Shown piece after piece: positions 2,905-36,794 of a stretch of DNA of 64,000 nt. A program made the translations under genes and the position numbers. Position 1 is the first letter of the stretch. Each line of letters opens with the position of its first letter. The notes under the pieces were generated by a model that was not told the DNA's origin, made no database searches, and worked only from the letters and a program-made list of their open reading frames with translations. Origin of the DNA: Saprospiraceae bacterium (GTDB lineage: Bacteria > Bacteroidota > Bacteroidia > Chitinophagales > Saprospiraceae); the NCBI GenBank assembly GCA_020846655.1, contig JADLDL010000375.1:1-64000 (forward strand). The letters run 5' to 3'.

Positions 2905-2921
2905 CTACTCCGGCGGTTTTT

Positions 2922-2929: not shown

Positions 2930-2951
2930 CCTCCGCAAACTTCGTTTTGGC

Positions 2952-3482
2952 ATGGAAAAACTCAGCATGGCGGCCCTGAACCGGCTTAGTCCGGATTCTT
3001 TTCGGGAAACCAAAAAATACCCCATCGTGTTGGTGCTCGACAACGTGCGCTCCGGGCTGAACGTCGGCTCGGTGTTTCGTACCGCCGATGCCTTTGCGCT
3101 GGAACGGGTGATGCTCTGCGGTATCACTGCCCAGCCGCCGCACCGCGAGATCCTGAAAACAGCCTTGGGCAGCACCGAATCCGTCGATTGGCAGTACCTC
3201 GAATCCACCCTGGAGGCTGTGCGGCAATTGCAGGCCTCCGGCTACCAGACCTGGGCAGTGGAACAAACCACGGAAAAAACCTGGTTGCAGGATTTTTTGC
3301 CTTCGGCCAACGAGAAATATGCCTTTGTGTTTGGCAACGAGGTAGACGGCGTGCAGGATGAAGTGCTCCGGCGCTGTACCGGCGTGTTGGAAATTCCACA
3401 ATTCGGCACCAAGCATTCACTCAACATTGCCGTAACGGCGGGCATCGTCAGTTGGGAGTTGGTGCGCAAGTTGAACCTGTAA
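2952..3482 (+). CDS. TrmH/SpoU family RNA methyltransferase
   Basis: VLDNVRSGLNVGSVFRTADAF, FGNEVDGV, IPQFGTKHSLNIAVTAGI motifs. Confidence 0.88.
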   Translation: MEKLSMAALNRLSPDSFRETKKYPIVLVLDNVRSGLNVGSVFRTADAFALERVMLCGITAQPPHREILKTALGSTESVDWQYLESTLEAVRQLQASGYQTWAVEQTTEKTWLQDFLPSANEKYAFVFGNEVDGVQDEVLRRCTGVLEIPQFGTKHSLNIAVTAGIVSWELVRKLNL

Positions 3483-3501
3483 AGAATCGCGTTACCTTCC
3501 T

Positions 3502-3509
3502 ACCTTTGC
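3502..3509 (+). promoter_or_regulatory. -7 element (TACCTTTG) for aspartate kinase
   Basis: Exact TAnnTTTG upstream of GTG 3569. Confidence 0.6.
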
Positions 3510-3568
3510 GCGTCCGAAACAGCCCCTTTGGCCCTTCATTTTTTCATGACTCAATTTTTCCAAACAAC

Positions 3569-4876
3569 GTGAATGTATTCAAATTTGGCGGCGCCAGCCT
3601 GAAAGACGCCGCAGGTGTAAAAAACGTAGCCTCGATTTTGCAACGCTATGCCTCTGATTCCCTGGTAGTTGTCGTTTCTGCTATGGGCAAATCCACCAAC
3701 GCACTGGAGGCTGTGGTGGCTGCTCATGCCAAACAAACCGGTGAGGCGCCAGCCTTGTACCAGGCGCTCAAAGAGCACCACTATGCCATCATGCGCGAAT
3801 TGTTTGAGCCCGGCGACGACGTGTTCAATATCGTCAACGACACCTTTGTAGAGGGCGACTGGGTGCTGGAAGAAAAACCCGCCGAGGACTATGACTACAT
3901 GTACGACCAGATCGTATGTGTCGGCGAATTGGTCTCCTCCAAAATTACAGCAGCCTATCTCAATAAAATAGGCCTCCGGACCCATTGGCTTGATGCCCGC
4001 GACGTGGTGGCCACCGACAACACCTACCGGGAAGGCTGGGTGATTTGGGATAAAACCAAGGCCAATACGCAAAAAAATGTGGCCCCTCTGTTGGCAAAAA
4101 GAGGCTTTGTGCTGACGCAGGGCTTTATCGGCGCCACTTCCGAAAATTTCACCACCACGCTGGGCCGCGAAGGTTCGGACTATTCGGCCGCCATTTTCTC
4201 CTACTGCCTCGATGCGGAAAGCATGTCGATCTGGAAGGATGTGCCTGGCGTCCTGAATGCTGACCCGCGTTTGTTTGAAAATGTGGTGAAACTTGACCGC
4301 CTTTCCTACAAAGAAGCCATCGAAATGACCTACTATGGCGCCCAGGTGATTCACCCAAAAACCATCAAGCCGCTGCAAAACAAAAATATCCCGCTATTTG
4401 TAAAGTCCTTTTTGGACCCGGCAGCGCCAGGCACTGAGATCAGCAGCGATACGGAAGAAGCCTATCCGCCCATTATTGTGGTGGAAAAAAACCAGGCCCT
4501 GCTGCACATCAGCACCAACGACTATTCCTTTGTGGCCGAGCAACATATGGCCCGCTTGTTTGCCAAACTGGCGGAGCTCCGGCTGTTTGTCAACATGATG
4601 CAAAACACCGCCATCAGTTTTACGATTTGCGTACCGAACGTGCCCGAACGCCTGGTCAAATTTGTCAAAGATGTCTCGGATGAATTCCGGGTCAAGCAGG
4701 AAAATGACTTGGAGTTGATCACCATCCGGCACTACAACGAAGAGACCATTGCTACCTTGAAAAAGGGCAAAATGGTTTTGTTTGAGGAGCGAATCCGCAA
4801 TACCATGCAAATGGTGGTGAAAAACGTACCCGCCATCGAGCGCCGTACCGTTGAATTGGAGCGGGCCAAAGGCTAG
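3569..4876 (+). CDS. aspartate kinase
   Basis: VFKFGGASLKDAAGVKNVA; GREGSDYSAA; C-terminal ACT-like region. GTG at 3569 preferred over the track start 3452, which overlaps the upstream gene. Confidence 0.88.
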   Translation: MNVFKFGGASLKDAAGVKNVASILQRYASDSLVVVVSAMGKSTNALEAVVAAHAKQTGEAPALYQALKEHHYAIMRELFEPGDDVFNIVNDTFVEGDWVLEEKPAEDYDYMYDQIVCVGELVSSKITAAYLNKIGLRTHWLDARDVVATDNTYREGWVIWDKTKANTQKNVAPLLAKRGFVLTQGFIGATSENFTTTLGREGSDYSAAIFSYCLDAESMSIWKDVPGVLNADPRLFENVVKLDRLSYKEAIEMTYYGAQVIHPKTIKPLQNKNIPLFVKSFLDPAAPGTEISSDTEEAYPPIIVVEKNQALLHISTNDYSFVAEQHMARLFAKLAELRLFVNMMQNTAISFTICVPNVPERLVKFVKDVSDEFRVKQENDLELITIRHYNEETIATLKKGKMVLFEERIRNTMQMVVKNVPAIERRTVELERAKG

Positions 4877-5030
4877 CGGCATTGAGAATTTTCGGCTGAA
4901 CCTGTTGCCCAGCCCTATGCTGGTCGATAAGTGACAACCGGGCCTTCCCGTACCTTGTTCTTTGTTGTTTTTAATCCATGTGCGCAGCCGCGCACGTGAT
5001 GTTCATGCGTTTTCCAAATCTTACTCCTCA

Positions 5031-7631: not shown

Positions 7632-7680
7632 GGCCCAGCCGATCTGTTTGTTATTTCAAGCCATTGAGGGCTTCGATCAG

Positions 7681-7714
7681 CCACTCCCGGGAAATGATTT
7701 CGGGAGTGGTTTTT
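7681..7714 (+). terminator. intrinsic terminator downstream of the outer-membrane receptor gene
   Basis: CCACTCCCG GGAAATGATTT CGGGAGTGG TTTTT. Confidence 0.8.
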
Positions 7715-7782
7715 AATTCTACATTCGTACTGCCGGGTTTTTTAATTGTATTTTCCAAAAACCCAAAGCCAGTTCCTCTTTG

Positions 7783-7790
7783 TACCTTTG
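7783..7790 (+). promoter_or_regulatory. -7 element (TACCTTTG) for mtgA
   Basis: Exact TAnnTTTG 20 bp before GTG 7811. Confidence 0.6.
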
Positions 7791-7810
7791 GCCCCCAAAA
7801 TATCCCGCTT

Positions 7811-8599
7811 GTGAATTTCCTGAAACGCATGTTGCGCCGCTGGTACCGCGCGATACCCCGCAAAGAAGACGGCACCTTGTCGTGGGGGCGCTATTTCCGC
7901 CGGCTGGTGCTCCGGCTGGTCCTTTGGTTTTTTGGCATAACCATCGGCCTGACACTGCTCTACGCCTTCCTTCCGGTGCCCTGCACGCCCCTCATGTTTA
8001 TCCGAAGTATCGAACAAGCCTCGGAGGCCAATCGAGACCTTCGCTGGAAGAAAGACTGGGTGCCCATGTCCGAATTGTCGCCCAAACTCCAATTGGCCGT
8101 GGTGTGCGCCGAAGACCAGGAGTTCCTGGAACACGAAGGCTTTGATTTTGCAGCCATTGAAAAAGCCTACAAATACAACCGCACCCACAAACGCAAGCGC
8201 GGCGCGAGCACCATCAGCCAGCAAACCGCCAAAAACACCTTCCTCTGGCCCGCCCGCTCCTGGATTCGTAAGGGCCTGGAGGTGTATTTTACCTTCCTGA
8301 TCGAAGTGATTTGGAGCAAGGAACGGATCATGACCGTCTACCTGAACATCATCGAATTTGGCGACGGCATCTACGGCGCAGAAGCGGCGGCCCGCCATTA
8401 TTACAACAAGGCAGCCAAGGACCTGACCACTTCCGAAGCCGCCATGCTGGCGGCTATTTTGCCCAATCCGCTGAAACGCTCGCCCAAAAACCCCAGCGGC
8501 GAGGTGCGCCAACGCCAACAATGGATCATCAGCCAGATGCGCATGTGGGGCGGGAAAATTGATTTTGACGACCCCAACACCCCTAAAAAAGAAAAATAG
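7811..8599 (+). CDS. mtgA: monofunctional biosynthetic peptidoglycan transglycosylase
   Basis: GT51 motifs: AVVCAEDQEFLEHEGFD, RGASTISQQTAKNTFL, EFGDGIYGAEAAARHYYNKAAKDL. GTG start 7811. Confidence 0.9.
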   Translation: MNFLKRMLRRWYRAIPRKEDGTLSWGRYFRRLVLRLVLWFFGITIGLTLLYAFLPVPCTPLMFIRSIEQASEANRDLRWKKDWVPMSELSPKLQLAVVCAEDQEFLEHEGFDFAAIEKAYKYNRTHKRKRGASTISQQTAKNTFLWPARSWIRKGLEVYFTFLIEVIWSKERIMTVYLNIIEFGDGIYGAEAAARHYYNKAAKDLTTSEAAMLAAILPNPLKRSPKNPSGEVRQRQQWIISQMRMWGGKIDFDDPNTPKKEK

Positions 8600-8610
8600 G
8601 AACCCATCGC

Positions 8611-10602
8611 ATGTCGAAAAAGAATAAATCCAATCCGCAGACGTCCGCGCCAACTCCCGAACCGGCTCCCTTGCCGCCTACGGGGGCTCCCGCGCTTTGG
8701 GAACGCCCCTTGGTAGCCTCGGTGTTGCTGGTGCTGGCGGTGCTGGCTACGTATGCCGCTTCCGTTCACAATGGATTCGTATTTTTTGACGACGACAAGG
8801 CAATTTTGTACAACCGTGCCTTGCAGAACCCCAGCCTGTCCAAGTTTTTCAGTGGCCAAAACCTCGGCATGTTTGCTCCGATCTCCTGGATTGGCTACTG
8901 GCTGGGCAGCCTGATCTCGGGCCAGGAAGCCTGGGGCTACCACTTGTTGGGGCTGTTGCTGCACGCCGCCAATGCCGTGTTGGCCTATTGGGTGCTCTAC
9001 CGACTGCTGGAGCGGCACTGGCCCGCCTTTTTTGCAGCCGCTCTGTTTGCGTTGCACCCTGCGCAGGTGGAGGCGGTGAGTTGGGCCGCTGCCTTGAGTA
9101 CGGTGTTGTTTGCTTTTTTCTACCTGGGCAGCCTGTTGGCCTATTTGGGTTGGAAAAAGTCCCCTACCCCAGCCCTGTACGGCTTGTCGTTGCTGGCTTT
9201 TGTGCTGGCTTGCCTGTCTAAATCGGCGGCCGTCACGCTGCCTTTGGTATTGCTGGCTGTCGACGCGTACCGGAGCGGTAAATTTTCAGGTATCCAATGG
9301 CTGAATAAAGTGCCCTATTTTGGCTTTAGCCTCCTTTTTGGCGCCTACACGTTTGTGACACGGGCGCAGGAAGGGCACGATATTGAGGCCGCCTCCAGCG
9401 CCTTTTCACTGGTCGACCGGTTTTGGATGGTGTGTCAAACCCTGTTGTTTTACCCGGCCAAACTGTTGCTGCCGCTGGGCTTTTCGATTTCCTATCCCTT
9501 TGTAAAAACCGAGGGGCTTTGGTCCTGGGAATATTACCTGGCGCCGCTGGCGCTGGTGGCCCTGGGGCTGCTGGTTTGGAAGAAATTCGCGAGTAATCGC
9601 GACGTTTTGCTGGCATTGGGCTTGTATTTGCTGCCCCTGGTGGTGATGTTGCCGTTCCGGACGGTGGGTAGTTTCGAGTTGCGCTCCGACCGCTATGTGT
9701 ACCTGTCGTGCCTGGGTGTGTTTTTGTTGCTGGCCCTGGCCCTTGAACATCAAAAAGCAAGCCTGCGCTACGGGGTTTTGCTGGGGGCCGCTGGCCTGCT
9801 GGCGTTTTTGACGCTGTCGCAAACCCGGGTTTGGAAAGACGGTATTGCGTTGTTTCAAAACTGCGTACAAAAAACGCCGGAAGCCTCTCTTTGCCAATGC
9901 AACCTGGCCTACAGCGAACTCCTGAACCTCGATTTTGAAAATTCAGCCTACCACTACAGCCAAGCCCTGAAATTCGACCCCTCCGTCGTGGAGGCGTACA
10001 ACGGCCGGGGACAAGCGTATTTTCAATTGAAAAAAATTCCGGAAGCCCTCGACGACTTTACCAATGCCATTGCCGGCGGCATCAGCACCCCCAAATTGTT
10101 TCTCAACCGGGGCAAATGCCTGGTCATGCTCAGCCGTCCGCAAGAAGCCCTCTCGGACCTGAACAAAAGCCTGGAACTGGAGCCCAATAGTCCGGAAGCC
10201 TATTTTTTCCGCGCTGTGGTGCACGAAAAAGGAAAAGAACCGGACTTGGCTTTGGCCGACTACAGCATGGCAATCGAGCAAAATCCGAATTACCTGGAGG
10301 CGATCGTCAACCGCGCGCTGATTCGTGTTGGCAACCAGCAATTTGCTGCCGCCATCGAGGACTACAGCCGGGCCGTTGCCCTGAACCCCCGGATGGAAAT
10401 GATTTACAACAACCGGGGCTACGCGTATTTAAAAAACGGCCAGCCCGACAAAGCGCTTGCCGACGTTAATACAGCCATGGAACTCAATCCTAATTACGCC
10501 CGGGCGTATCAAACCCGCGCCGTAATTTACCAGCAACTGGGCCAGGCTGCGTTGATGCAGGCCGATTTGCAAACTGTCCAGCGCTTGCAACAAGGCCGGT
10601 AG
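8611..10602 (+). CDS. polytopic membrane protein (PMT/TMTC-like) with C-terminal TPR repeats
   Basis: Multiple hydrophobic segments followed by tandem TPRs (e.g. AYNGRGQAYFQLKKIPEALDDFTNAI). Confidence 0.8.
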   Translation: MSKKNKSNPQTSAPTPEPAPLPPTGAPALWERPLVASVLLVLAVLATYAASVHNGFVFFDDDKAILYNRALQNPSLSKFFSGQNLGMFAPISWIGYWLGSLISGQEAWGYHLLGLLLHAANAVLAYWVLYRLLERHWPAFFAAALFALHPAQVEAVSWAAALSTVLFAFFYLGSLLAYLGWKKSPTPALYGLSLLAFVLACLSKSAAVTLPLVLLAVDAYRSGKFSGIQWLNKVPYFGFSLLFGAYTFVTRAQEGHDIEAASSAFSLVDRFWMVCQTLLFYPAKLLLPLGFSISYPFVKTEGLWSWEYYLAPLALVALGLLVWKKFASNRDVLLALGLYLLPLVVMLPFRTVGSFELRSDRYVYLSCLGVFLLLALALEHQKASLRYGVLLGAAGLLAFLTLSQTRVWKDGIALFQNCVQKTPEASLCQCNLAYSELLNLDFENSAYHYSQALKFDPSVVEAYNGRGQAYFQLKKIPEALDDFTNAIAGGISTPKLFLNRGKCLVMLSRPQEALSDLNKSLELEPNSPEAYFFRAVVHEKGKEPDLALADYSMAIEQNPNYLEAIVNRALIRVGNQQFAAAIEDYSRAVALNPRMEMIYNNRGYAYLKNGQPDKALADVNTAMELNPNYARAYQTRAVIYQQLGQAALMQADLQTVQRLQQGR

Positions 10603-10652
10603 GCCGAAGTCCAATGGATTGTTAATCTACCCTGAATTGCGGACGGGCCAAG

Positions 10653-10660
10653 TATTTTTG
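10653..10660 (+). promoter_or_regulatory. -7 element (TATTTTTG) for the amidohydrolase-like gene
   Basis: Exact TAnnTTTG upstream of 10699. Confidence 0.55.
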
Positions 10661-10698
10661 CCCCGAAAAGTCATTTTTTTCAATCAACAACCACGTCC

Positions 10699-11940
10699 AT
10701 GACAAAATCAATACTTCCGCTGATCGGATTTTGCCTGATCCAGGTCCTCGCCATTGGCCAAAAAACCACGCCCGTTTACGAGTTTAAAAACGGCAACTGG
10801 TACAATGGCGAAGGTTTTACACCGGGTACCTGGTATACCGTAGATGGGAAATTTACCAAAAAAACACCTGCCAAAGTCGACTCCGTATTTGATTTGGCCG
10901 GCCGCTGGGTCGTTCCGCCCCTGGCCGATGCCTACTGTTCGACCCTCACTGGCAACCCCTCGGCGGCCAACCAACTTGGCTTCTGCACGGAAGAAGGTAT
11001 TTTTTACCTGCAAGTGCTCGGCAACTCCCTGGAAGATCGCAAAGCCGTCGAGGCCCTGGTTAACAAACCTTCCGGCCCGGACGTGGCATTCGCCAATGGC
11101 GGGGTCACCTGCTCCCTGGGCTATCCGTTTCTCCAGTTTGAAGGCCCGGCCCAAGGGATCCGCAACCCGCAACTCATGAAGCAGCAATACGACAAAATCA
11201 AGTTGCAGCGCAGCATGGAAGGCAACGGCTATTGGTACATGGACAGCAAGGCGGCCGTTGGCAAAGCCTGGGATAAAATCAAGGCCCAAAGGCCGAACCT
11301 GATCTCGATTTATTTGCTCGATGTTGCCAACAGCGGCGGCAAAGAAGGCAAAGGCTTGTCGGCCGATGTAGCCAAAGAAGTGGTAAAAAAAGCGCACAAA
11401 TCTGGCTTTCCAGTGTACGCGCACGTCGAAACGGCAGCCGATGTGGCACTTGGCCTCAAGTTGGGTGTCGATGGTTTTGCCAACCTGCCCGGCCACAAGT
11501 GGGACGGCAGTGGCGACGGCAAAAAATACGAACTGTCGGACGATGACCTAAAAAAACTGGCCAAGAAGAAAACACCCGTAATTCCGCTTTTTTCGCACGC
11601 GCAATCCATGGCGCCCCGCCAGGGCAGCCAGGAGGCGCAATCGAAAATGCTGAAACGACTGCTGAGCAACGGGGTGAATGTGGTGATTGGCTCGGATGAT
11701 ATCCAACGCACGATCCGGGGTGAACTCAACTACTGGTTTCAATTCGGCGACCTGAACTACAGCCAGACCCTGAAAATACTCTGTGTCAACACGCCGCAGG
11801 CTATTTTCCCGAAACGCAAAATCGGTCGCATTGCGGATGGCTACGAGGCCAGTTTCATCGTGCTGAGCGACAATCCACTGACCAACCTGCTCAAACTCCG
11901 GGCTATCGCTTACAAAGTAAAAGACGGCTTGATTTTTTAA
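10699..11940 (+). CDS. amidohydrolase-like protein, metal-site motif degenerate
   Basis: Signal peptide; AHVETAADVALGLKLGVDGFANLPGH, NVVIGSDD, IGRIADGYEASFIVLSDNPL match the amidohydrolase superfamily. Confidence 0.75.
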   Translation: MTKSILPLIGFCLIQVLAIGQKTTPVYEFKNGNWYNGEGFTPGTWYTVDGKFTKKTPAKVDSVFDLAGRWVVPPLADAYCSTLTGNPSAANQLGFCTEEGIFYLQVLGNSLEDRKAVEALVNKPSGPDVAFANGGVTCSLGYPFLQFEGPAQGIRNPQLMKQQYDKIKLQRSMEGNGYWYMDSKAAVGKAWDKIKAQRPNLISIYLLDVANSGGKEGKGLSADVAKEVVKKAHKSGFPVYAHVETAADVALGLKLGVDGFANLPGHKWDGSGDGKKYELSDDDLKKLAKKKTPVIPLFSHAQSMAPRQGSQEAQSKMLKRLLSNGVNVVIGSDDIQRTIRGELNYWFQFGDLNYSQTLKILCVNTPQAIFPKRKIGRIADGYEASFIVLSDNPLTNLLKLRAIAYKVKDGLIF

Positions 11941-11978
11941 GCCTTGCCAACAGCAGGCATCCTGACTGTTGTACGAAC

Positions 11979-12026
11979 TAAAAAGGGCAAGCCTACAGCT
12001 GCGAATCTGTAGGCTTGCCCTTTTTA
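11979..12026. terminator. bidirectional intrinsic terminator
   Basis: Perfect 20-bp inverted repeat TAAAAAGGGCAAGCCTACAG / CTGTAGGCTTGCCCTTTTTA between convergent genes. Confidence 0.9.
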
Positions 12027-12074
12027 TGTACTGCCCGGACCGGCGTGTTTTCCAAAAATTGGGATATAGCCAGT

Positions 12075-13433
12075 TTAAATCGCCTGGATCAGGTCGTATT
12101 GGGTGAGGATATGCATGCCGCCGGAGCGGTCTTTGGCGATAACCGCCGTCACCTCCCGGTTGATGTATTTGTTCAACTGGCTGATCGGCAGGTCTTCCTG
12201 CACCAATGGAAAAGGTGCGCCCATGACTTCCCGCAGGAGTTTTTCCGAATTGTGGAGCGGATTTTCCAACAGGATACGCAAGACCTGATTTTCGGTGATG
12301 GAGCCCACCAGTTGGTCGCCATCCAGCACCGGCAACTGGCTGATATCATCCGATTTCATCAAACTGAAGGCGCTGCGCACGGTGTCGCTGACCTGAACGG
12401 AAATAAACCGACGGTCTTTTTTTCGGGCAATCAGGTCGCCTACGCTGAGTTCGTCCTCCAGGAATCCGCGTTGCCGCATCCATTCGTCGTTGTAAATTTT
12501 GCCGACGTAGCGGCTGCCGTGGTCGTGGAAAATCACGACCACCACATCGTCTTTTTTCAATTTGCCGCGCAGTTGCCACAGCGCGCCCATGGCGCTTCCT
12601 GCAGAATAGCCCAGCAGCAAGCCTTCCTGGCGGGCCAGGCGCCGGGCCCAAAGGGCCGCATCTTTGTCCGAAACTTTTTCAAACTGATCAATCACCGAGA
12701 AGTCCACGTTGGCAGGCAAAATGTCTTCGCCGATGCCCTCGGTGATGTAGGGGTAAATTTCTTTCGGGTCAAAAACGCCGGTTTCGTGGTATTTTTTGAA
12801 CACGGAGCCATAGGTGTCGGCGCCCCACACCTGAATCTTGGGGTTGCGCTCTTTCAGGTACCGGGCCACGCCAGACACGGTGCCGCCGGTGCCTACCCCC
12901 ACCACCAGGTGGGTGATTTTGCCCTCCGTTTGGTCCCAGATTTCGGGGCCAGTGGATTCGTAGTGTGCCTGCCGGTTGGAGAGGTTGTCGTATTGGTTGC
13001 ACCAGAACGAGTTGGGGATTTCGCCGCTCAGGCGCCGCGCTACAGCATAGTAGGATCGCGGATCTTCCGGCTCCACGTTGGTAGGGCATACGATCACCTC
13101 GGCGCCCAGGGCTTTAAGGACATCGACTTTTTCTTTGCTCTGCTTGTCGGTGGTCGTGAAAATACACCGGTAGCCCCGCACACAACCCACAAGGGCCAGG
13201 CCCATGCCGGTATTGCCGGAGGTGCATTCGATGATGGTGCCGCCGGGCTTGAGGTCGCCGCGCGCCTCGGCGTCGTCAATCATTTTAACAGCCATCCGGT
13301 CTTTGATGGAGTGGCCGGGGTTGAAGGTTTCTACTTTTGCGAGCACCAGAGCCGGTATGTCGCCGGCAATTTGGTTGAGCTTAACCAAAGGCGTGTTGCC
13401 TATCGTTTCGAGGATATTCTCTTTGTATTGCAT
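12075..13433 (-). CDS. cbs: cystathionine beta-synthase (PLP domain plus CBS domain pair)
   Basis: ETIGNTPLVKLN, NPGHSIKDRMAVKMI, CTSGNTGMGLA, GVGTGGTVSGVARYLK; C-terminal CBS domains. Confidence 0.88.
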   Translation of the reverse strand: MQYKENILETIGNTPLVKLNQIAGDIPALVLAKVETFNPGHSIKDRMAVKMIDDAEARGDLKPGGTIIECTSGNTGMGLALVGCVRGYRCIFTTTDKQSKEKVDVLKALGAEVIVCPTNVEPEDPRSYYAVARRLSGEIPNSFWCNQYDNLSNRQAHYESTGPEIWDQTEGKITHLVVGVGTGGTVSGVARYLKERNPKIQVWGADTYGSVFKKYHETGVFDPKEIYPYITEGIGEDILPANVDFSVIDQFEKVSDKDAALWARRLARQEGLLLGYSAGSAMGALWQLRGKLKKDDVVVVIFHDHGSRYVGKIYNDEWMRQRGFLEDELSVGDLIARKKDRRFISVQVSDTVRSAFSLMKSDDISQLPVLDGDQLVGSITENQVLRILLENPLHNSEKLLREVMGAPFPLVQEDLPISQLNKYINREVTAVIAKDRSGGMHILTQYDLIQAI

Positions 13434-13454
13434 GTGTGGTGTTAGATTGCCATT

Positions 13455-14183
13455 TTATGGTAAGTGCGCGAGCATCATGTCGCGTACTTTTTCTTTTAAC
13501 ATCGGGATATCGGCCGCGCTCAGTCCGGCGGTTTCAATGGGGGTGTCCCATACGATATGAACGGTGCCGGGGCAAAGGTCGAGCGAGCGGGCGGTGGCTG
13601 ATATGTTTTTTATGTTCAAAATGGTCTGGATGGCCAGCGGCGCTTTGGTCTGAATGGCAATCCGGAAGGCCCCATCGAAAAAAGGCGCCAACGGCTCCTC
13701 TGTTCGGTTTCGGCCGCCTTCCGGGTAGATAAAAATACTCCAGCCGGCAGCCAGTTGATTTTTTATATCCACCACGCTACGAGCACGGCTCATGGCACTG
13801 CTGCGGTCAACCGACAGGCACATTTTTTTGACCACCCAACCAAACACCGGCACTTTGTGCAGTTCTTGTTTAGCCAGAAAACGAAAAACGCCAGGGAAGG
13901 CATCGGCGTTGACGATAAAATCGAGGGAGGAGTTGTGGTTGCCAATAATGACGTAGGAGCGCTTCGGGTCCAATTTTTCCTGTCCCGAAATCCGGGTTCG
14001 AATGCCCACCAAGGTCAGGAAAACAGGCGTGAAAACATGGTGCAAATACCCAATATTGCGCCGCAGGGCCGTATTGCCTGGGGTAACTGCCATGTTAATG
14101 AGCAATACAGGAATCGATACGGCCATCAACAACAAAAACAACAGGACACCGTAGATAGCCCAAATTTTCCGAAAAAAGTCCAT
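13455..14183 (-). CDS. plsC: 1-acyl-sn-glycerol-3-phosphate acyltransferase
   Basis: NHNSSLDF (HX4D variant) and YPEGGRNRTEE motifs. Confidence 0.85.
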   Translation of the reverse strand: MDFFRKIWAIYGVLLFLLLMAVSIPVLLINMAVTPGNTALRRNIGYLHHVFTPVFLTLVGIRTRISGQEKLDPKRSYVIIGNHNSSLDFIVNADAFPGVFRFLAKQELHKVPVFGWVVKKMCLSVDRSSAMSRARSVVDIKNQLAAGWSIFIYPEGGRNRTEEPLAPFFDGAFRIAIQTKAPLAIQTILNIKNISATARSLDLCPGTVHIVWDTPIETAGLSAADIPMLKEKVRDMMLAHLP

Positions 14184-14201
14184 GCGCGAACTTTACGGGC
14201 G

Positions 14202-14209
14202 CAAAGGTA
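14202..14209 (-). promoter_or_regulatory. -7 element (TACCTTTG) for plsC
   Basis: Plus-strand caaaggta 18 bp upstream of the start. Confidence 0.6.
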
Positions 14210-14289
14210 CCTTAATTCCTGCCGAAAAAGATTCAGCAGTGATCCGAAAACCAGTCTTGTGTCGAAAAGCCGGTGTCTGGCTTGCCCGT

Positions 14290-14688
14290 TTAGTGCAAAT
14301 GGGCTTTTTCAATAGCCCTCGGGTCGTATTTTACGTTGATATTGATCCACATCAGGCGCGAAATGCGAAAGATGTACACAAAGTTGACCACCAAAAACAG
14401 GATCAGCGAGCCAAACGCCACGGTCTGACTATACCCCAGGACCCAGTGGAAAAGCGCGACAAACAGCAAACAGAACCATCCGCTCCACACGTAGGAAATA
14501 AACATAGCGCCGTAATAGTAGCCGGGTTCCGGAAAGTAGTTCAGGTTGCATTTCGGGCAGCGCTCCAACATGTCAAAGGATTTGACGAATGACCAACTGC
14601 CGGTTTCGAACATCTCCCCTTCGTGGCAACGTGGACATTTCAGGTAGAAAATGCTGTAAGACTTGGAGCCTTTTGAAAATAGAGCCAT
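14290..14688 (-). CDS. DUF983 family membrane protein
   Basis: KCPRCHEGEMF...RCPKCNLNYFPEPGYYYGAMFISY, two Zn-ribbon-like CxxC pairs and TM segments. Confidence 0.85.
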   Translation of the reverse strand: MALFSKGSKSYSIFYLKCPRCHEGEMFETGSWSFVKSFDMLERCPKCNLNYFPEPGYYYGAMFISYVWSGWFCLLFVALFHWVLGYSQTVAFGSLILFLVVNFVYIFRISRLMWININVKYDPRAIEKAHLH

Positions 14689-14732
14689 AGCACAATGGAC
14701 GCAATGCGCCCGGTTAACCGTAAAAGAAAGCG

Positions 14733-14740
14733 CAAAGATA
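14733..14740 (-). promoter_or_regulatory. -7 element (TATCTTTG) for the DUF983 gene
   Basis: Plus-strand caaagata upstream of 14688. Confidence 0.6.
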
Positions 14741-14878
14741 CGTTCTCCAGGCGTTCTTCAATCCCGGATGAGCAATTGGAAGGCTTGATGTAAATCACCA
14801 CCTGCTCTGACCCCGCTCATCTGCCCGCCTGGCCGTTCCTTCGACTTTTGTGTTATAAAAAAGTCATCTTCTATCGTC

Positions 14879-26910: not shown

Positions 26911-27666
26911 TTACCAGATAAAAGGAATAAGGGCCTTCCGGTGTTTCGGATAGGCCCTAAATTTTTCCTGGTACCAACGGTGGTGCGCCCAGGCGCGCGG
27001 CGCCAGATTGGCAATGGTCCAAAACGCAAAGGCCAGGCCCGGCAAACTCCAGCTTAGCAAGGCAAAACCAATCCATTCGATCATCTCGCCCAGGAGGTTG
27101 GGGCAACTGACCCACTCAAAAGCGCCGCCCGTGGGGATCACGTACCCCGTTTCGCCCGGCTTGCGCAAGCGAATGAGCCGGTAGTCCGTATAGATGTTGA
27201 GCGCGGCACCGCCCAGAAACAGGGCTGTGCCGCAGACAAACCGCCAGTCACTGAACCAGCTGGCCGGGTATTCTGCAAAATGTGCAAAATAGTAGCCCAG
27301 CAAAAAGCCGTTCATCGTGTTGAAGCACATGGCGGATAGCGCGATCAGCAAGGGCATTTGTTTGCCCCGGGTGCGCAGAAACCAAGGAAAGATAAGACTT
27401 CGGTGCAGGTAGTGCGCCACAAAAAAGCCCGCCATCAGGGCCACGGGGGAACCGAGCGGTGGCAATTTTTCGCGTAAAAACAGGAAAAAAACTACTAAAA
27501 CCGTGGCTTCCATCAGGATCCAGCCCAGGTGATTGTCCAGCGTCGGGCCCCAGCCGCTTGTGGTGTGCCGGCCAAAGGGCGCGCGGATAAACCGCAAGGC
27601 AAAAAAGACAATGGCGCCCAGGGCCACCCAGACCAGGATGACCAGGCGAAAGGTTTCCAAACTCAT
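26911..27666 (-). CDS. 3-oxo-5-alpha-steroid 4-dehydrogenase family membrane protein
   Basis: C-terminal GYVIPTGGAFEWVSCPNLLGEMIEWIGFALLSW...WYQEKFRAYPKHRKALIPFIW matches the steroid 5-alpha-reductase family pattern. ATG at 27666; the track's 28095 start runs into the upstream gene. Confidence 0.85.
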   Translation of the reverse strand: MSLETFRLVILVWVALGAIVFFALRFIRAPFGRHTTSGWGPTLDNHLGWILMEATVLVVFFLFLREKLPPLGSPVALMAGFFVAHYLHRSLIFPWFLRTRGKQMPLLIALSAMCFNTMNGFLLGYYFAHFAEYPASWFSDWRFVCGTALFLGGAALNIYTDYRLIRLRKPGETGYVIPTGGAFEWVSCPNLLGEMIEWIGFALLSWSLPGLAFAFWTIANLAPRAWAHHRWYQEKFRAYPKHRKALIPFIW

Positions 27667-28646
27667 GATTTCGATTTTATCCAATAGCTGTGCAGCCAAT
27701 CCCAGGTGTCGCGCAGGGTTTCTTCCAGCGGCCGGGGTTGGTACTGCAACTGTTGTGTGGCTTTTGCGTGTGAAACCTTGGGGTGCCCGCCCTGCACGTG
27801 CGCTATAGATTCGCGGGTGAACAGCGGCTCTGTTCCGCTGAGTCGGCTCCAGGCGGCCACGGCCGGAACCAGTGCGTGCAAGAGCCAGAAAGGAACACTT
27901 CTGGTGGGCATGCGCCGGCCGGTGATGTGGCCCAACATGGCGGCTATGTCCAAAATTCGGGCATAGTGGCCCGACAACAGATAGGCTTCTCCCGGAATCG
28001 CCTGGGTCATGGCCGCCACGGCTGCTTGCGCCACATCGCGGTTGTCTACCCAATCGTAACCACCGGGGGTAAGCACCGGGATCTTGCCCTGCCACAAATC
28101 AAGCAACATCTTCCCTTGCAGGGAGGGCTTGGTGTCCCAGGGGCCCAGGACGGCTGTTGGGTTCAGGCAAACGGTTTCCAAGGCACCGGGCTGGTTGGCC
28201 GCCAATACCAGGGCCTGCGCATTGGCTTTGCTGCGCTCATACGGAAATGCGGTGGCAGGCGGCGCCGATTCGTCGAAAGGCAGGTGCCGGGGCACCACGG
28301 CATAGGCATGTGCCGAACTAAAATGCACCAGGCGTTGCACGCCTTGCTTGCGGCAAGCCGCGATCACCCGCCGGGTGCCGTCCACGTTGATCTCCTGTAA
28401 GCGTTGCTCCGGAATACTGCCGATGCTAATTTGGCCGGCCAGGTGGAACACCATTTGGGCGCCGGCGCACAGTCGGTCCAAACTGTCAGGGTCTTGCAAA
28501 TCGCCCAAGACTGGCTCGAGCGGCAAATGCTGCAACCCCAGGCAAGGTTGTCGCACGAATATCCTGACATTATGACCCTCTGTTACCAAATGGCGACATA
28601 CTGCGGCGCCAATATGGCCGCTGGCGCCGGTGATTGCCACGTTCAT
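27663..28646 (-). CDS. NAD-dependent epimerase/dehydratase (extended SDR; 3-beta-HSD/HpnA-like)
   Basis: MNVAITGASGHIGAAVCRHL (GxxGxxG), HFSSAHAYA, YERSKA (YxxxK). Confidence 0.85.
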   Translation of the reverse strand: MNVAITGASGHIGAAVCRHLVTEGHNVRIFVRQPCLGLQHLPLEPVLGDLQDPDSLDRLCAGAQMVFHLAGQISIGSIPEQRLQEINVDGTRRVIAACRKQGVQRLVHFSSAHAYAVVPRHLPFDESAPPATAFPYERSKANAQALVLAANQPGALETVCLNPTAVLGPWDTKPSLQGKMLLDLWQGKIPVLTPGGYDWVDNRDVAQAAVAAMTQAIPGEAYLLSGHYARILDIAAMLGHITGRRMPTRSVPFWLLHALVPAVAAWSRLSGTEPLFTRESIAHVQGGHPKVSHAKATQQLQYQPRPLEETLRDTWDWLHSYWIKSKS

Positions 28647-28763
28647 GCCAGTAAAGGTAAAGCAGGAATGATTTTTGTACAGGCATTCTTGGTGGCATTT
28701 TCTAGAAAGCCTATTATTGTCCTGTCATCTATTCCGCTAATCCGCCCGGCTACTGAGTTGTCT

Positions 28764-30236
28764 ATGCCGATCAAAATACACTTCAGCGTCCTTATGGATA
28801 TCCAGCACGGGCTTACCGACCAGTTTTGCCGCCGGAAGTTCAATGTTATCATTTGGGGGCTCCTGCTATTTCTGCTCCCGCTTCGGCTGAACGCTCAACA
28901 AGCCCTGGAATTTGCCATTGCAGGGCAGCATTACCGGACGCAATTTTCCTGGGTACTCAAACACGTCAATACAGAATACCGGGCCAAACCGGCTTTTGTG
29001 CTCGACCGGGCAAAAAACGCCAATTTTGACCTGATTGTCTCTTTTTCGTTTGACAACGACTCCCTCCCGGTTGATAAAAATGTGGTCTGGGGCTTTCAGT
29101 TCAGGGAAACAGGCGGTTTGATTCTGCCAGCCAGCAACGCAAAAAGATCCAGGAGTGCCAAGCAATTTCAGCGCTTTACTGCCACCGGTGTTGGTAATGC
29201 CGGCCTCACCATTGTCCCAATGGTTTGGAAAATTGGGGGCGGCGGCATGGAAGTACTCAGCCAAGGCAACCCGGTTCCAATGAATTTTAGTTTTGTGGAA
29301 AACCCCTTGGGGGGTGACAACGGGCTGGCGAATCCGCTTCCGAATGCCGGCGCCAACCAGGTCAGGACTGATAGCCAGGCAGCGACGCCGACGCCAGTGC
29401 CGGGCGGAAATACAGAAGACGAAGCACAAGCCTATGCCGTGGCCAAAAGCGAGCCGGATACCCTGCGAAAAATTAAGGCACTCATTGACTTTGTGGACAA
29501 ATTTGCCGAAGCCAAACCCGGCTCGCCCCTGGTGGCCAAGGCCATAAAAGACATCCCGCTGCGCGCCAGCATACCGGAAAAAAAAGGTGGCAATACCTAC
29601 ACCTACACCTTGAATTACGCCGTAAACCCTGTTGTTGACACCTCTCATGTGCGCGGCTGGCAATGGCGTTTGTCGCAAGGCCAGTCGGGTAAATACCAAT
29701 TGGTGCTCACCGACCTGAAGGATTCGGTACATTCGTTTCGAATTGCCGACTTGGGAAAAAATGCCCCGTTTAACCGGCCTAGGGATTTAAAGCCCCTGGA
29801 GCGGGTACTTATCCGGTATTTGGGTGAAACATCCGATTCGTTTCGGGTGCAAGCCAGCGGCGGAAATGCTCCGTTTATCGTTTTCTTGTCTCAAAACGGA
29901 TACACGAAAGAGCGTTATATCATTGAAAAAACCGACCAGATCTGGACTTTTGCCAAAGATGTGTGCCAGCAGTGCGGCAACGGGCCACACACACTGGAGG
30001 TATATGAAAATGATTTGAGTACCTTGTTACTGCGGGAGCCAGATGCCGTCCACATCCAAAAACTAACCACCTGGATGTTGGTGTTGGGCGCTGTCGGCTT
30101 GGCTTTTGCCGCCTGGCTGTTGCTGGTTTGGTTTCCGAAATTCTGGAAACGGTACCGGTATGTTCAAAAACTGCGGGATATTGAGCAATGGGAGGAGAAA
30201 GAAGCCCGGGAGTCGGGCCGAAACCGGCGGCGCTAA
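28764..30236 (+). CDS. uncharacterised exported protein with C-terminal TM anchor and basic tail
   Basis: Signal sequence (FNVIIWGLLLFLLPLRLNAQ), C-terminal helix LTTWMLVLGAVGLAFAAWLLLVWF, charged tail. No family recognised. First gene of the operon with the next two. Confidence 0.7.
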   Translation: MPIKIHFSVLMDIQHGLTDQFCRRKFNVIIWGLLLFLLPLRLNAQQALEFAIAGQHYRTQFSWVLKHVNTEYRAKPAFVLDRAKNANFDLIVSFSFDNDSLPVDKNVVWGFQFRETGGLILPASNAKRSRSAKQFQRFTATGVGNAGLTIVPMVWKIGGGGMEVLSQGNPVPMNFSFVENPLGGDNGLANPLPNAGANQVRTDSQAATPTPVPGGNTEDEAQAYAVAKSEPDTLRKIKALIDFVDKFAEAKPGSPLVAKAIKDIPLRASIPEKKGGNTYTYTLNYAVNPVVDTSHVRGWQWRLSQGQSGKYQLVLTDLKDSVHSFRIADLGKNAPFNRPRDLKPLERVLIRYLGETSDSFRVQASGGNAPFIVFLSQNGYTKERYIIEKTDQIWTFAKDVCQQCGNGPHTLEVYENDLSTLLLREPDAVHIQKLTTWMLVLGAVGLAFAAWLLLVWFPKFWKRYRYVQKLRDIEQWEEKEARESGRNRRR

Positions 30237-30278
30237 TGGCATATTTATTGCCCGGATACCGATTAAGCAAACGAATTA

Positions 30279-32312
30279 ATGAAAACGAGCAATCACGTGT
30301 TTTTCCCCAAACGCATCCCGGCACTGGTATTCCTGCTACTTGGATTACTGGGGCCCTCGCTAGGGCGGGCACAGGCCTGTTTCAGCATCAATACAAGCAA
30401 GTCGCGCCTTGAATTAAGCCCGAGCCTGAGTGTTCAACTACCCGACGAGGGAGATACGCTAAAAATACCCTGCACCAGGCGAATTGAAAACCTGAGTATC
30501 GTACTTGATTTTCAAAGCAATACAGAAAAATATTTTGAAGATTCAACACAATTGGTAGCGACCTTGCTCCAAAATGGTTTTACGTATGTCTTGGTCTACG
30601 ACAAAGCCGCCAACACCTTCAAAATACCTTCCAACCAACCCGATTTGGATGCGGGCTCCTACAGCCTCACTATTTCTTCGGCAGCCTGCGCCCCTTTTGG
30701 CGTTGTTTGCGGGAATTGTATTCCAACCTACACCTTTTTTATTGTGTTCAGCCAGGCGCAGGTCAACCTGACGATTCAGACGAATCCGAGTCCTCCCATC
30801 TTGAAGTGTGTGCCCGGCAATGTGGTGACCCTGACGGGGTCGCCATTGCCCCACGACAAGTTCTCTGCCCAATGGTTCAAGTTTACGAACAACCTGTTTG
30901 TGCCGATTCCAGGTGCCACCAGCACAGAGTATAAAGCCAACCTTGCAGGGGTTTATCAATATAAAATTACCGGCCCTGTGGGCTGCACCGGTGCTGAACT
31001 GGCTACCGTAAATCCTCCACAAATGCCGATATTGAGTATTGCGCCCAATCCGCAGACCTTGGAGGCTTGCACGCAGGCCATCACGGGTGTTTCAGTAGAA
31101 AATTTCGGCACTTCGGTGTCCAACCTGAGTTATGCCTGGACGGCGCTAAATGGCGGCGACATCCAAAGCGGCGCCAACACGAGTAGTCCGGTTGTTCGCA
31201 GTGCCGGCGTGTATTCCCTGGTCGTGACGCGCAACGACAACAGCTGCGCCGCCGTGGGGCAATTGAAAATGGAGGCGGGCGCGATCCCGTTGCTTTCGGT
31301 CAAAATCATTAGCAGCGGCGGGAACATTCAGTTGGATTGCCTGACAAAAGAAATCCAATTGAATGCCGTAGCCGAGCTTTCCTCCGGTGCGCCGCAGTTT
31401 ACCTACGCCTGGTCGGAAGGGTCCAGTTCAAGTTCTATCGTAGTCAACACACCGGGCACCTACAACGTAACCGTTACGGCGACCGACATTGGCTGCCAGC
31501 GGTCCAGTAGCACCCAAATTTCACAACTTATGACCCTGCCGGCCTTGCAAATCACCAGTTCGAAGGACACTGTTTGTCCCAACCAAAGTGTTACGCTGAC
31601 GGCTTCCACGAATATCCCGACGCCTGCCTACAAATGGAACGACAACAGCGGCAACAAAACCCAGGTCGTGTACCCTACCAATCTGGGCCCGAATACCTAT
31701 GGTGTCACCATTACTGATTTGCAATCCGGTTGTACCAATGCGGGTAGCAAAATTATTGTTTTGGAGCCTACACCCTTCGTCGCGTGCAATGCATTCAGCC
31801 AGACGATCTATGATGGAGATCCGCTCAGCCTGGACTGCCAGGCATCTAACGGCTTACTCATTTGGGCAAGTAATGTGGTCAATGTATCCGGCGTGCCGCC
31901 CTCCGGGGAAGGCGCTATCCAGGATCAGCCATATGGTTTGTTTGACGACCGGGCGCCTGGCATGGTTCAATTTTATTTGTACAGTCAAAACCCGGGTTGC
32001 ACCAGTGACCGGGTGGAAGTGAACGTGCAAATTTTGCCGGATGCCGACCAAAATATTTATATCCCAGAGTTGATTACGCCGAATGGCGACGGTTTGAACG
32101 ACAGTTGGAATATTATTTTGCCGGGCGGCGCCAGTCCACCGGAAAACTACCTGCTCTCGGTATTCAACCGGTATGGCTCGCAGGTTTTCACCGGCAATTT
32201 GAGCGTTTTGTTTAACGCCGATGATTATCCGGACGGTTCATACTACTATATCCTGACCCCCCCGGATGGCCAAACCATCCGGGGGGCAGTTACGATTCTC
32301 CGCCGGCAATAA
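30279..32312 (+). CDS. surface protein with gliding-motility-associated C-terminal (CHU_C, T9SS type B) domain
   Basis: C-terminus YIPELITPNGDGLNDSWNIILP...YLLSVFNRYGSQVFTG...YPDGSYYYILTPPDGQTIRGAVTILR; Ig/PKD-like repeats upstream. Confidence 0.88.
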   Translation: MKTSNHVFFPKRIPALVFLLLGLLGPSLGRAQACFSINTSKSRLELSPSLSVQLPDEGDTLKIPCTRRIENLSIVLDFQSNTEKYFEDSTQLVATLLQNGFTYVLVYDKAANTFKIPSNQPDLDAGSYSLTISSAACAPFGVVCGNCIPTYTFFIVFSQAQVNLTIQTNPSPPILKCVPGNVVTLTGSPLPHDKFSAQWFKFTNNLFVPIPGATSTEYKANLAGVYQYKITGPVGCTGAELATVNPPQMPILSIAPNPQTLEACTQAITGVSVENFGTSVSNLSYAWTALNGGDIQSGANTSSPVVRSAGVYSLVVTRNDNSCAAVGQLKMEAGAIPLLSVKIISSGGNIQLDCLTKEIQLNAVAELSSGAPQFTYAWSEGSSSSSIVVNTPGTYNVTVTATDIGCQRSSSTQISQLMTLPALQITSSKDTVCPNQSVTLTASTNIPTPAYKWNDNSGNKTQVVYPTNLGPNTYGVTITDLQSGCTNAGSKIIVLEPTPFVACNAFSQTIYDGDPLSLDCQASNGLLIWASNVVNVSGVPPSGEGAIQDQPYGLFDDRAPGMVQFYLYSQNPGCTSDRVEVNVQILPDADQNIYIPELITPNGDGLNDSWNIILPGGASPPENYLLSVFNRYGSQVFTGNLSVLFNADDYPDGSYYYILTPPDGQTIRGAVTILRRQ

Positions 32313-32333
32313 TGCATTCCAGGCAACTCAAGC

Positions 32334-34316
32334 ATGATACGAATTTTCCCACCGATACCGATTTTAATAGGCATTTTGGCCAGCGCTACCCTGCTGCCTG
32401 CCCAGCAAATTCCCTTTTTAAACCAATATACCTGGGATGCCCGCTTGTTCAATCCGGCGAGTCAGGGCGCCGACAACCAGGGTGAAATTACCGCCGTATA
32501 CCGCACCCAATTCCATGACCTTGATAAAAGTATTCGCCCCAGCACCTATTTGTTACACGCCGATGTTTCGCCGTTTTTAGGAAAAAAAACCGGATTAGGC
32601 TTTCAGGTTATGGGGGATAAAACCCACATTCTCAAACGAATGCAGGCCACAGGTTTTTTTGGATATCACTTGGTGGAAAATGAAAAATTGCGCTTTTCGC
32701 TCGGCGCTATGGCCAGTTTCATGAACCAACAATTCGATTTCGATCAAATTCGCGTCAGCGACCCCCTCGATCTGCTGTATTTCAATGGTCAGGTAGATGC
32801 CAAGCGATTCGACGGTGGTCCGGGCATGTCGTTGGTGTACCAGGCCGAAGGAGGCTCAGCCATGAGCCTCGATGTCGCTGTGCCACAACTGTTTAGTAAT
32901 GATGTCAAAATAGCCGGCGCTGACGCATCCGTCAAACAACCGGCAGTATATGGCTTGGTGCCGCATTTTTTAGCCAATGTCCGTTTTTTGTACCAGGGAC
33001 GGGATTTTGCAGTAGAACCCAATGCTGCTTTTCGCTTGCTCAGCGGCGATAGGCCCTTGCAGACCGGTATTTTTGACCTCAACCTGAATGCCTACTTTTT
33101 AAAAAATAACTTGCTCATGGTTGGAGCAGGGCTGCGTACCGGCAAGGGTGGATTTCACGTACAACTCGGCGTTGCGCCGACGCCGGCATTTCGCCTGAAA
33201 TTCACGGCTGAACAACACAGCGTGTTGGGCGCCAGTTATGAAATTGGCTTGCAATATGTTTTCGAAAAAGCAGCAGCAGCAACGGTGGCCGTACTTCCGC
33301 CCGCCGACAATACGTCGGACTTTATCGCCAGAATGTACGAAGAATCGAAACGCTTGAACATGGCGATCAATGTGGAACTGGAACTCATCCGGAGCCGGCA
33401 AAACCAGATTCAAGGTGCCATCGAACGGGGAACAGACGCGACCAAACGAAGAGAAAAAGGAGCCTATGCCAGTCAATGCGCCGAACTGATCAGTCAATCG
33501 AACCGGGAGATCGTGCAGGTGGAACAAACGATCAGCGAATTGGAACAACGCTACCTCCAGGGGGAAAAACTGCTTCAGGAAAAACAGGCTAAAGCCGAAC
33601 TACTCCCGCCTGGCGCCCAAAACGGCCTGGTGGCTACCGCCGAATTGCGCAACGCTGCCCTACGCCAACTGGAAGAAATCAAAACCATTCAAGCCCTGCT
33701 CACCGAACGCTGCATGGCCTTGCAACCTGGCACCTCCGAGATGGCCTGCCTGCGCGCCGGAGACAGGGATTGCGTCCAGGATTTGTTTGCTGAGGCGCTG
33801 GCTGCCATGTCGGACAAGCCGAACAACCTGTTTCCATTACAGGTTGCTACCGATGGCCCGGTTGCAAGCGTCACCTACCGATACCCCGATGATGCCGAGG
33901 CATATGTACTCAGCCCGGAATTGCGCCGGCTGGCAGAACATATTGTTTCCCGGATGCGCCAACTGGATCGGCAGGGCGCCGAATCCTTTTCCCTCCAGTT
34001 GGTGACGGAATTGCAGGAGGACCAAAACACCCTGGGCTTTGCGCCGGGCTTGACGTACTCGGGCGATTTGGACGCGGATTTGGCGGCTTACGCCCTCATA
34101 GACAACGAAACAGGCACCCGAACGGACAAGCAACTGGCGCCTGCCAAAGATGCAGCCCTCAGCCTCGAAGAACTGGCTGCGCTAAAACTGGCTGCCTTAC
34201 GCCAATACCTGATCGGCCTTGGAGTGCCGGCTTCCCTGATCACCGGCACTATTCGCTACAACCACAGCGATATTATCTACCGGGAGGAAACCAACCTGAT
34301 CCTACAAATAAAATAA
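32334..34316 (+). CDS. PorP/SprF family barrel fused to coiled-coil and OmpA-like C-terminal region
   Basis: N-terminus PFLNQYTWDARLFNPASQGADNQGEITAVYRTQF typical of PorP/SprF; residues about 330-450 coiled-coil; C-terminus LAALRQYLIGLGVPASLITGTIRYN resembles the OmpA-like signature. Confidence 0.75.
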   Translation: MIRIFPPIPILIGILASATLLPAQQIPFLNQYTWDARLFNPASQGADNQGEITAVYRTQFHDLDKSIRPSTYLLHADVSPFLGKKTGLGFQVMGDKTHILKRMQATGFFGYHLVENEKLRFSLGAMASFMNQQFDFDQIRVSDPLDLLYFNGQVDAKRFDGGPGMSLVYQAEGGSAMSLDVAVPQLFSNDVKIAGADASVKQPAVYGLVPHFLANVRFLYQGRDFAVEPNAAFRLLSGDRPLQTGIFDLNLNAYFLKNNLLMVGAGLRTGKGGFHVQLGVAPTPAFRLKFTAEQHSVLGASYEIGLQYVFEKAAAATVAVLPPADNTSDFIARMYEESKRLNMAINVELELIRSRQNQIQGAIERGTDATKRREKGAYASQCAELISQSNREIVQVEQTISELEQRYLQGEKLLQEKQAKAELLPPGAQNGLVATAELRNAALRQLEEIKTIQALLTERCMALQPGTSEMACLRAGDRDCVQDLFAEALAAMSDKPNNLFPLQVATDGPVASVTYRYPDDAEAYVLSPELRRLAEHIVSRMRQLDRQGAESFSLQLVTELQEDQNTLGFAPGLTYSGDLDADLAAYALIDNETGTRTDKQLAPAKDAALSLEELAALKLAALRQYLIGLGVPASLITGTIRYNHSDIIYREETNLILQIK

Positions 34317-34451: not shown

Positions 34452-36794
34452 ATGCGTACACCTCTTACCCTCCTGTCCATTCTCCTGGCCACCGCCCTTT
34501 TCGCTCAAAATGCTGTTATCCAAGGAACTGTAAAAGATATTGCCAACGGCGAAGCCCTGGTTGGCGTGTCGGTACGCGCCGGCAGTATCGGCGCCATTTC
34601 CGATATCGATGGCGCATTCCGGTTTGAACTGCCGGCGGGCAATTACGAAATCACGTTCACCTACACCGGCTATGAAGACCGGAAACAAGCCGTACACCTG
34701 GTCGCCGGCGAAACGCATGTATTGGCGATGCAATTGGGGGATGCCGACAATTTACTGCAACAGGCAACCGTGACGGCAGGAAAATTTGAAAAACCCCTGG
34801 GCGAGGTGACGGTGTCGCTGGATGTGCTCAAGCCGCGCTTGTTGGAAAATATCAATGCCTCGCAGGTTGATGAATCGCTGGTGAAAATCCCCGGCGTCAG
34901 TATTATCGACGGGCAGGCGAGTATCCGGGGTGGCGCGGGCTTTTCTTATGGCGCCGGCACCCGGGTATTGATCCTGGTCGACGATATGCCGGCGATGCAG
35001 GTAGATGCCGGCCTGCCCAACTGGAGCGATTTCCCGGTCGAAAACATTAGCCAAATCGAAGTGCTCAAAGGGGCTGCCTCTGCGCTATACGGTTCCTCGG
35101 CCATGAACGGGATTATTAACATCCGGACTGGGTTTGCCAAAGACAAACCGGAAACCAGTGCCGCCGTATTTAGTCAGGTATGGGGCAATCCCAAAGAAGA
35201 AGACGACTACCACCCCGGCAAAGAAGGGCAAAAGATAAACCGGAAATGGTGGGGTAGCGATACCTCCTACATCCTGATGCCCATCGAAACCGGCTATAGT
35301 TTTTGCCACAAACGCAAGGCCGGCAAATTGGACATGGTATTCGGTTCGTACGGCTTGTATCGCGATAGCTACAACAAGGATACGTACAGCCGGTACATGC
35401 GCGTTACACCCAATTTTCGGTACCGCTTCTCTGATCGGCTCCTGGTTGGGTTGAACACCAATTTCAACTTCGGACGCAGTGGCTCCTTTTTTACCTGGAA
35501 CGATGATTCGGAAGGCACCTACACGCCGGGGCTTTCATCCGCCAGTTATACCAAAGGCCGTCTGCGGTTTACTGTCGACCCTTCAGTCCAGTATTTTGAC
35601 CGGGGCGGCAACCGCCACAAATTCCTGGGCCGCTATTTTTATGTGCACAACAACAACAGCGGCAACCAAAGCAACGACAGCCGGATGCTCTACGGCGAAT
35701 ACCAATACCAGCGCCCCATGGACAATATCGGCCTGGTGGCAACGGCTGGCGTGGTAGCCACCTACAGCACCATCGATGCCGAACTCTACAACAACGCCAA
35801 TTACAGCGCACAAAACTACGCGGGCTCCATCCAATTGGACTACAAGGCCTTTGACCGCCTCAACCTTTCCGGCGGCGTGCGTTACGAACGGAACATCCTG
35901 CACAGCCCGGAAATTATTCCGATTGATGGCGTGGAGGTGGATACCATCCCCAACGGGATTACCAAGGAAGGCAAACCCGTGTATCGGATCGGGGCCAACT
36001 ACCAGGCCGCAAAAGCCACTTTTTTCCGGGTCTCGTACGGCCAGGGGTATCGCTACCCGACGATCGCAGAGAAATTTATCCAAACAGACTTTGGCGTCGG
36101 CAATGTCATCCCGAACCCGCGACTGGTGTCGGAAACAGGCTGGACTGCCGAACTCGGCATGAAACAAGGCTTCGCGCTGGGCGATTGGCAAGGCTTTTTT
36201 GACCTGACCGGTTTTGTGTCGGAATACGAAAGTATGATGGAGTTTAACCTCGACCGGCTCGTGCCTTCCATCGCATTTAAATCCAAAAACATCGGCAACA
36301 CCCGGGTGACCGGCTGGGAGGCCTCGATTATGGGGCAAGGGAAAATAGGCAATGGCATGTTGTACCTGCTCACGGGGTACACCTCCATCGACCCGAAGTA
36401 CAAACTGGAAGATGGCGAAGTCTTCGACCCCGCCAAATACGGCCTGCCCACCGACGACAGTACCAATGTGCTGAAATACCGCTTCCGCCACACCTTCAAA
36501 TGCGACCTCGAATACGTGTGGCGCGGCCTGGGTGTGGGTGGTTCGTTTCAGTACAACAGCCACATGCAAAAAGTGGATGGGGTGTTCGAGTATTTTATTC
36601 CCGGCGTCCATACGTTCCGGACGGAACACAACAACGGTGCAAGAATTGTAGATATTCGGGTATCGCAGAAAATCGGCAATCACCTGAAGGTGAGTCTTTT
36701 GTGCGGCAATATTCTCAATGAAGTGTATTCGGTACGCCCGGCTTTGCTTGAAGGGCCGCGGAACTACACGCTCCGTTTGGACTGGAAAATTTGA
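34452..36794 (+). CDS. TonB-dependent receptor
   Basis: Signal peptide, CarboxypepD_reg-like NTD, plug ([35 protein letters not shown]), barrel. Confidence 0.92.

Follow-up and report, generated by a model that had tools for sequence, protein, structure and literature searches.

We propose that three adjacent genes of a Saprospiraceae bacterium encode one envelope-spanning surface module, which would act as a tether or as a receptor. They lie in a 64,000-nucleotide stretch of DNA, hereafter the window. We give this reading a probability of about 0.6, and we infer both the contact between its parts and any signalling through them. The product of the first gene, ORF1, is most likely a JAB-less form of a membrane protein used in ubiquitin-like operons of the Saprospirales. 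The features are as follows.

28647-28763, no strand: intergenic stretch common to the operon and the divergent gene 27663-28646, putative promoter region
28764-30236, + strand: ORF1, 490 aa, exported and bitopic by prediction
30279-32312, + strand: CHU_C/type B T9SS cargo with PKD/Ig-like repeats, 677 aa
32334-34316, + strand: long PorP/SprF-family barrel, 660 aa

The operon and its three products

The original prediction of a three-gene operon with gaps of 42 and 21 bp was borne out in strand, lengths and spacing. Judging by its position, the stretch 28647-28763 is probably the promoter region of the operon. An alternative, longer ORF1 would start with TTG at 28404 and overlap the opposite-strand gene 27663-28646. 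Gene order and strand are kept in two other genomes (loci L012 and L013), where the proteins are 44-48% identical, and thus the set is not a chance arrangement. A T9SS is expected in the host, since its genome encodes SprA (2304 bits) and GldK (571 bits), both over cut-off. The long PorP gene is adjoined by a TonB-dependent receptor gene at 34452-36794.

The identity proposed for the second and third products also held. The cargo contains a CHU_C domain (PF13585, 4.2e-12) and PKD repeats, both over cut-off, while its match to the type B model TIGR04131 (9.6e-8, 32.1 bits) falls slightly below the cut-off of 35. The barrel gene matches PorP_SprF (PF11751, 1.7e-25) and TIGR03519, the latter over cut-off. 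Overlooked earlier was an additional C-terminal extension of about 350 residues in this PorP. The structure model of the whole PorP (pLDDT 79.7) consists of a barrel (51-309), a helical stalk (326-461) and an alpha/beta domain (503-659), and the PDB matches of the model are outer-membrane barrels, T9SS translocon chains among them. OmpA was considered for the C-terminal domain: the secondary-structure order is broadly compatible, and hhalign gave 42% over 22 columns only. Pfam gave no OmpA match, and this identity is not established.

ORF1 had been described as an exported protein with a C-terminal TM anchor and a basic tail, and our predictions agree. It contains a predicted signal peptide (hydrophobic 26-44, ...LNAQQ) and a single C-terminal hydrophobic segment at 439-457, within a TM helix at about 436-457. 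The remaining 33 residues include 12 K/R and 6 D/E, and a basic helix (YxxKLRxIExWE), predicted to be cytoplasmic, is conserved at the C-terminus. The structure model is of moderate confidence (pLDDT 74.6, pTM 0.47) and shows a beta-rich ectodomain, a short helical part (217-262), further beta structure and a helix (436-489) crossing the membrane; the periplasmic ectodomain is predicted as a tandem beta-sandwich that includes a short stretch of helix. The topology of ORF1 is very probably that of a bitopic inner-membrane protein, with a periplasmic ectodomain, one TM helix and a cytoplasmic C-terminus. Independent support comes from paralogues, described below, in which a JAB domain that should lie in the cytoplasm directly follows the same helix.

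No family was matched by ORF1 in Pfam or NCBIfam at E<=1, nor was there a match in PADLOC. In the PDB, no match of the single sequence was better than E 0.11, and a profile built from nine sequences matched nothing at E<=10. Fold searching returned generic Ig, FN3 and pilus-chaperone matches with low TM-scores, none of them convincing. The earlier statement that ORF1 has no recognisable family thus holds for curated libraries; what it missed is the kinship to JAB-bearing membrane proteins of ubiquitin-like operons.

ORF1 relatives in ubiquitin-like operons

The same genome encodes, on contig C122, a 756-aa paralogue of ORF1 whose first ~470 residues match it at 35% identity (E 4e-79), the ectodomains aligning over their whole length. 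Just past its TM helix the paralogue carries a JAB/JAMM domain (PF01398, 1.3e-5) in which the JAMM residues E614, H678, H680, S688 and D691 are intact and conserved in relatives. The window ORF1 ends 33 residues past the TM segment and lacks this domain. In hhalign, the ectodomains of ORF1, of the Saprospirales TM-JAB proteins and of the TM proteins next to them (the 588-aa type) were homologous (98.6, 97.4 and 99.5%, the first value being that of ORF1 against the broader TM-JAB set); unrelated comparisons used as controls gave 0.6-0.7%. Branches in the ectodomain tree are long, so gain of JAB is not polarised against its loss.

The C122 cluster is complete (1138-14816; L003 in G000:C122:1-20000) and encodes, in order, an E1, a YukD-like Ubl, two E2s, a 588-aa TM protein, the ORF1/JAB paralogue, a multi-TM FHA protein, a CHU_C protein and a long PorP/SprF barrel. 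The E1 matches ThiF at 2.5e-50. The Ubl (89 aa) belongs to the YukD family (2.6e-8) and ends in PKLVAG, and both E2s contain HPN...C, one scoring above and the other just below the Pfam cut-off. By E2 profile, E2s of this type are restricted in the window genome to C122 and C177. The proteins scanned beside the window ORF1 are the CHU_C protein, PorP, the TonB-dependent receptor and two short proteins without a family match over cut-off; E1, E2 and Ubl were absent among them.

A second complete cluster of the C122 type was found in genome G210 (L041), and partial ones in G204 (L042, truncated where the contig ends) and, in the window genome, on C177 (L040). The latter, at 2001-9512 of G000:C177:1-16000, reads E1-Ubl-E2-TM-JAB-FHA and is the second such cluster in this genome; its Ubl ends in AGNR and may need trimming before use. 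Across the order, the E2 profile detects such operons in 17 of 398 genomes, which represent 10 of 165 genera; a sample of the whole phylum showed them almost nowhere else. Most loci retain the core E1-Ubl-E2-(TM)-JAB-FHA and differ in the flanking module. A CHU_C gene flanks it in L081, together with PorP, and in L082, where the stretch read stops at CHU_C. Other loci are flanked by an ion channel (Ion_trans; L070 and L071, the former also with an upstream nSTAND1 NTPase), and L075 adjoins M23 peptidase and T6SS_VasE-like genes, with neighbours of similar size in L076 and L077. This variety suggests interchangeable partner modules. The FHA proteins of several relatives contain a VWA domain over Pfam cut-offs. 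Past the first TM segment of the FHA protein of L003 (~395-450), and in its relatives, there is a conserved DPxTxDxF...C...W...CPxYPxC stretch. By eye, and without Pfam support, this Cys segment resembles a RING/U-box, and a role as E3 is possible.

Co-occurrence, mechanism and alternatives

Of 42 genomes in the genus, 8 contain ORF1 and 10 the long PorP, a G218 match at E 0.075 being excluded from the ORF1 count. All 8 fall within the 10, an overlap with a hypergeometric probability of 3.8e-7 when phylogeny is ignored; the counts are phylogenetically dependent because four genomes in which the genes are dispersed form one clade in the tree. CHU_C relatives were searched for in the 10 genomes that have the long PorP and, as controls, in 2 that lack it. 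They are present in 10/10 of the former: near full length at 37-45% in G200, G224, G225, G235, G236 and G239 (and, besides the gene in the window itself, on C122 of G000), truncated at contig ends in G204 and G223, and as a weak partial match (33%) in G210. The 2 controls gave only partial, repeat-like matches.

The window, G239 and G200 have the three genes side by side; G204 may have them so too, but its contigs break within the set. In G224, G225, G235 and G236 all three are retained on different contigs, ORF1 adjoining a conserved M1 peptidase-type gene (this family and metK were Pfam-checked in G224 only). A different CHU_C gene follows ORF1 in G225. The PorP of this dispersed clade (L045-L048) keeps a TonB receptor neighbour 64-66% identical to that of the window. 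Four of the eight ORF1 genomes thus rule out strict adjacency: ORF1 does not always adjoin the CHU_C/PorP pair. Adjacency is common and co-retention constant, which supports, at the level of gene content, a functional tie between ORF1 and the pair. The suggestion of an inner-membrane partner for cargo and barrel consequently stands on topology and co-occurrence but loses constant adjacency. Beyond the genus, no protein of the order sample matched the ORF1 profile at E<=1e-4. A scan of the contig collection gave no match with the single sequence and seven contigs with the alignment, all matching genomes already sampled.

Type B cargo requires PorP/SprF, which also anchors it (PMC12618676, PMC9143113). 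In the reading that we favour, the T9SS would secrete the CHU_C protein and the cognate barrel would hold it on the surface. The extra periplasmic stalk and C-terminal domain of PorP would extend inward, where the beta-sandwich ectodomain of ORF1 may contact barrel or stalk, its conserved helix facing the cytosol. A surface load could in this way be tethered to the inner membrane, or a ligand sensed there. In ubiquitin-like loci a JAB enzyme occupies the position of the cytoplasmic helix of ORF1, with a related CHU_C-PorP pair also encoded, and this suggests signalling in those loci.

Cysteines offer a possible point of contact. ORF1 C401-x-x-C404 is invariant in nine relatives, and C382, C460, C472 and C480 of PorP are conserved in 10/12 relatives. 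The two PorPs without them (L041 and L044) come from genomes whose TM-JAB proteins likewise lack C-x-x-C. As the periplasmic tail of SprF is disulphide-bonded to GldK in gliding (PMC12635249), a covalent link between ORF1 and PorP is a fair hypothesis, which draws on a single evolutionary contrast that intramolecular bonds would fit equally.

We also consider, tentatively and with less confidence than the module itself, a Saprospirales signalling chain with a T9SS-displayed protein on PorP outside and a ubiquitin-like cascade inside, of which the window operon would be the stripped envelope part. The inner end of such a chain would comprise E1, a YukD-like Ubl ending in Gly, E2, the TM-FHA protein as a candidate RING/U-box-like component and the membrane-anchored JAB; the window ORF1 would keep a short cytoplasmic docking helix instead of the enzyme. 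The window form itself likely works on its own, without a ubiquitin-like system, since it has no JAB and no such E2 turned up at E<=1e-8 in four ORF1-bearing genomes (G200, G224, G225 and G235). For at least these four, we reject the idea that ORF1 depends on a ubiquitin-like operon in its own genome.

ORF1 might instead be an accessory periplasmic or inner-membrane assembly factor for the cargo-barrel pair, chaperone-like and with no mechanical or signalling role. Its predicted tandem beta-sandwich would suit such a factor, as would the weak matches that its fold gives to FimC-type chaperone complexes and to other Ig/FN3 proteins, and its co-occurrence with CHU_C and PorP is compatible with a dedicated role. 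However, those matches are generic and of low TM-score, and the reported requirements of type B pairs are the T9SS and the cognate PorP/SprF, no such third partner being named (PMC12618676). The strongly conserved cytoplasmic helix and the JAB fusion of the paralogue suggest that the cytoplasmic side is important, and we regard an assembly factor as unlikely, though the most credible of the alternatives.

Less probable again is a satellite receptor that feeds the C122 and C177 ubiquitin-like systems in trans, with ORF1 as a JAB-less decoy or regulator. The same genome does contain two E1/E2/Ubl/JAB loci, and the ORF1 and C122 ectodomains can be aligned end to end, but the ORF1 genomes without such an E2 argue against any general dependence. 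That ORF1 is an unrelated gene which merely happens to precede an ordinary cargo/PorP pair of type B would agree with its position beside M1 peptidase genes in four genomes. We consider this very improbable: the order is conserved in three genomes, the pair accompanies ORF1 in every genome that has it, and a homologous ectodomain is again linked to CHU_C-PorP in C122 and L041.

Comparison with known systems

The current view is that type B cargo-barrel pairs reach no further than the outer membrane or the T9SS track. A dedicated inner-membrane partner, if true, would turn some of them into trans-envelope tethers or receptors. The homology of ORF1 to a membrane-anchored deubiquitinase-like protein, together with CHU_C-PorP in a ubiquitin-like operon, suggests a testable route from the surface to cytoplasmic conjugation, in a bacterial group where ubiquitin-like systems appear little studied. 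The cargo-barrel pair is already known; what appears new, judging by the open papers searched, is the third component, the long barrel and chiefly the link between T9SS and ubiquitin-like systems. We did not find these three described in that literature, in which Bil and Bub were covered through later summaries.

Bacterial ubiquitin-like operons with E1, E2, Ubl and JAB have been described (Iyer 2006, PMC1779556), as have FtsH ternary systems (PMC7159879) and, as later papers summarise them, Bil and Bub (PMC13373217, PMC11354881). The same genes are found in C122, C177, L041 and L042. A similar run of E1, E2 and JAB genes lies on a cyanobacterial plasmid of Crinalium (L111, NC_019754.1 29843-48724), where the order is E1, two small ORFs, E2 and Mov34/JAB, adjoining a type IV secretory system gene. 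The C122-type loci differ from the known operons in that their JAB domain forms part of a single-pass membrane protein whose ectodomain is predicted to be periplasmic (a TM segment only in L040), that a TM-FHA protein is added, with VWA in several relatives, and that some loci include CHU_C-PorP. E1, E2, Ubl and JAB are all absent from the window operon itself.

With respect to GldM/PorM, ORF1 has no domain of that family by Pfam or NCBIfam; its predicted layout is an N-terminal signal peptide and a C-terminal TM helix. The window set resembles SprB-SprF and PG1035-PorP (PMC12618676, PMC9143113) in that a CHU_C cargo gene lies directly upstream of the barrel gene and the T9SS core is present; it differs by the ~350-aa stalk and domain on the barrel and by a third, inner-membrane gene. 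It also recalls SprF-GldK (PMC12635249), as conserved Cys residues past the barrel of a PorP/SprF-family protein may have a thiol partner. Unlike SprF, the window PorP has no C-x-C tail, and its proposed partner would be an inner-membrane C-x-x-C protein instead of the lipoprotein GldK.
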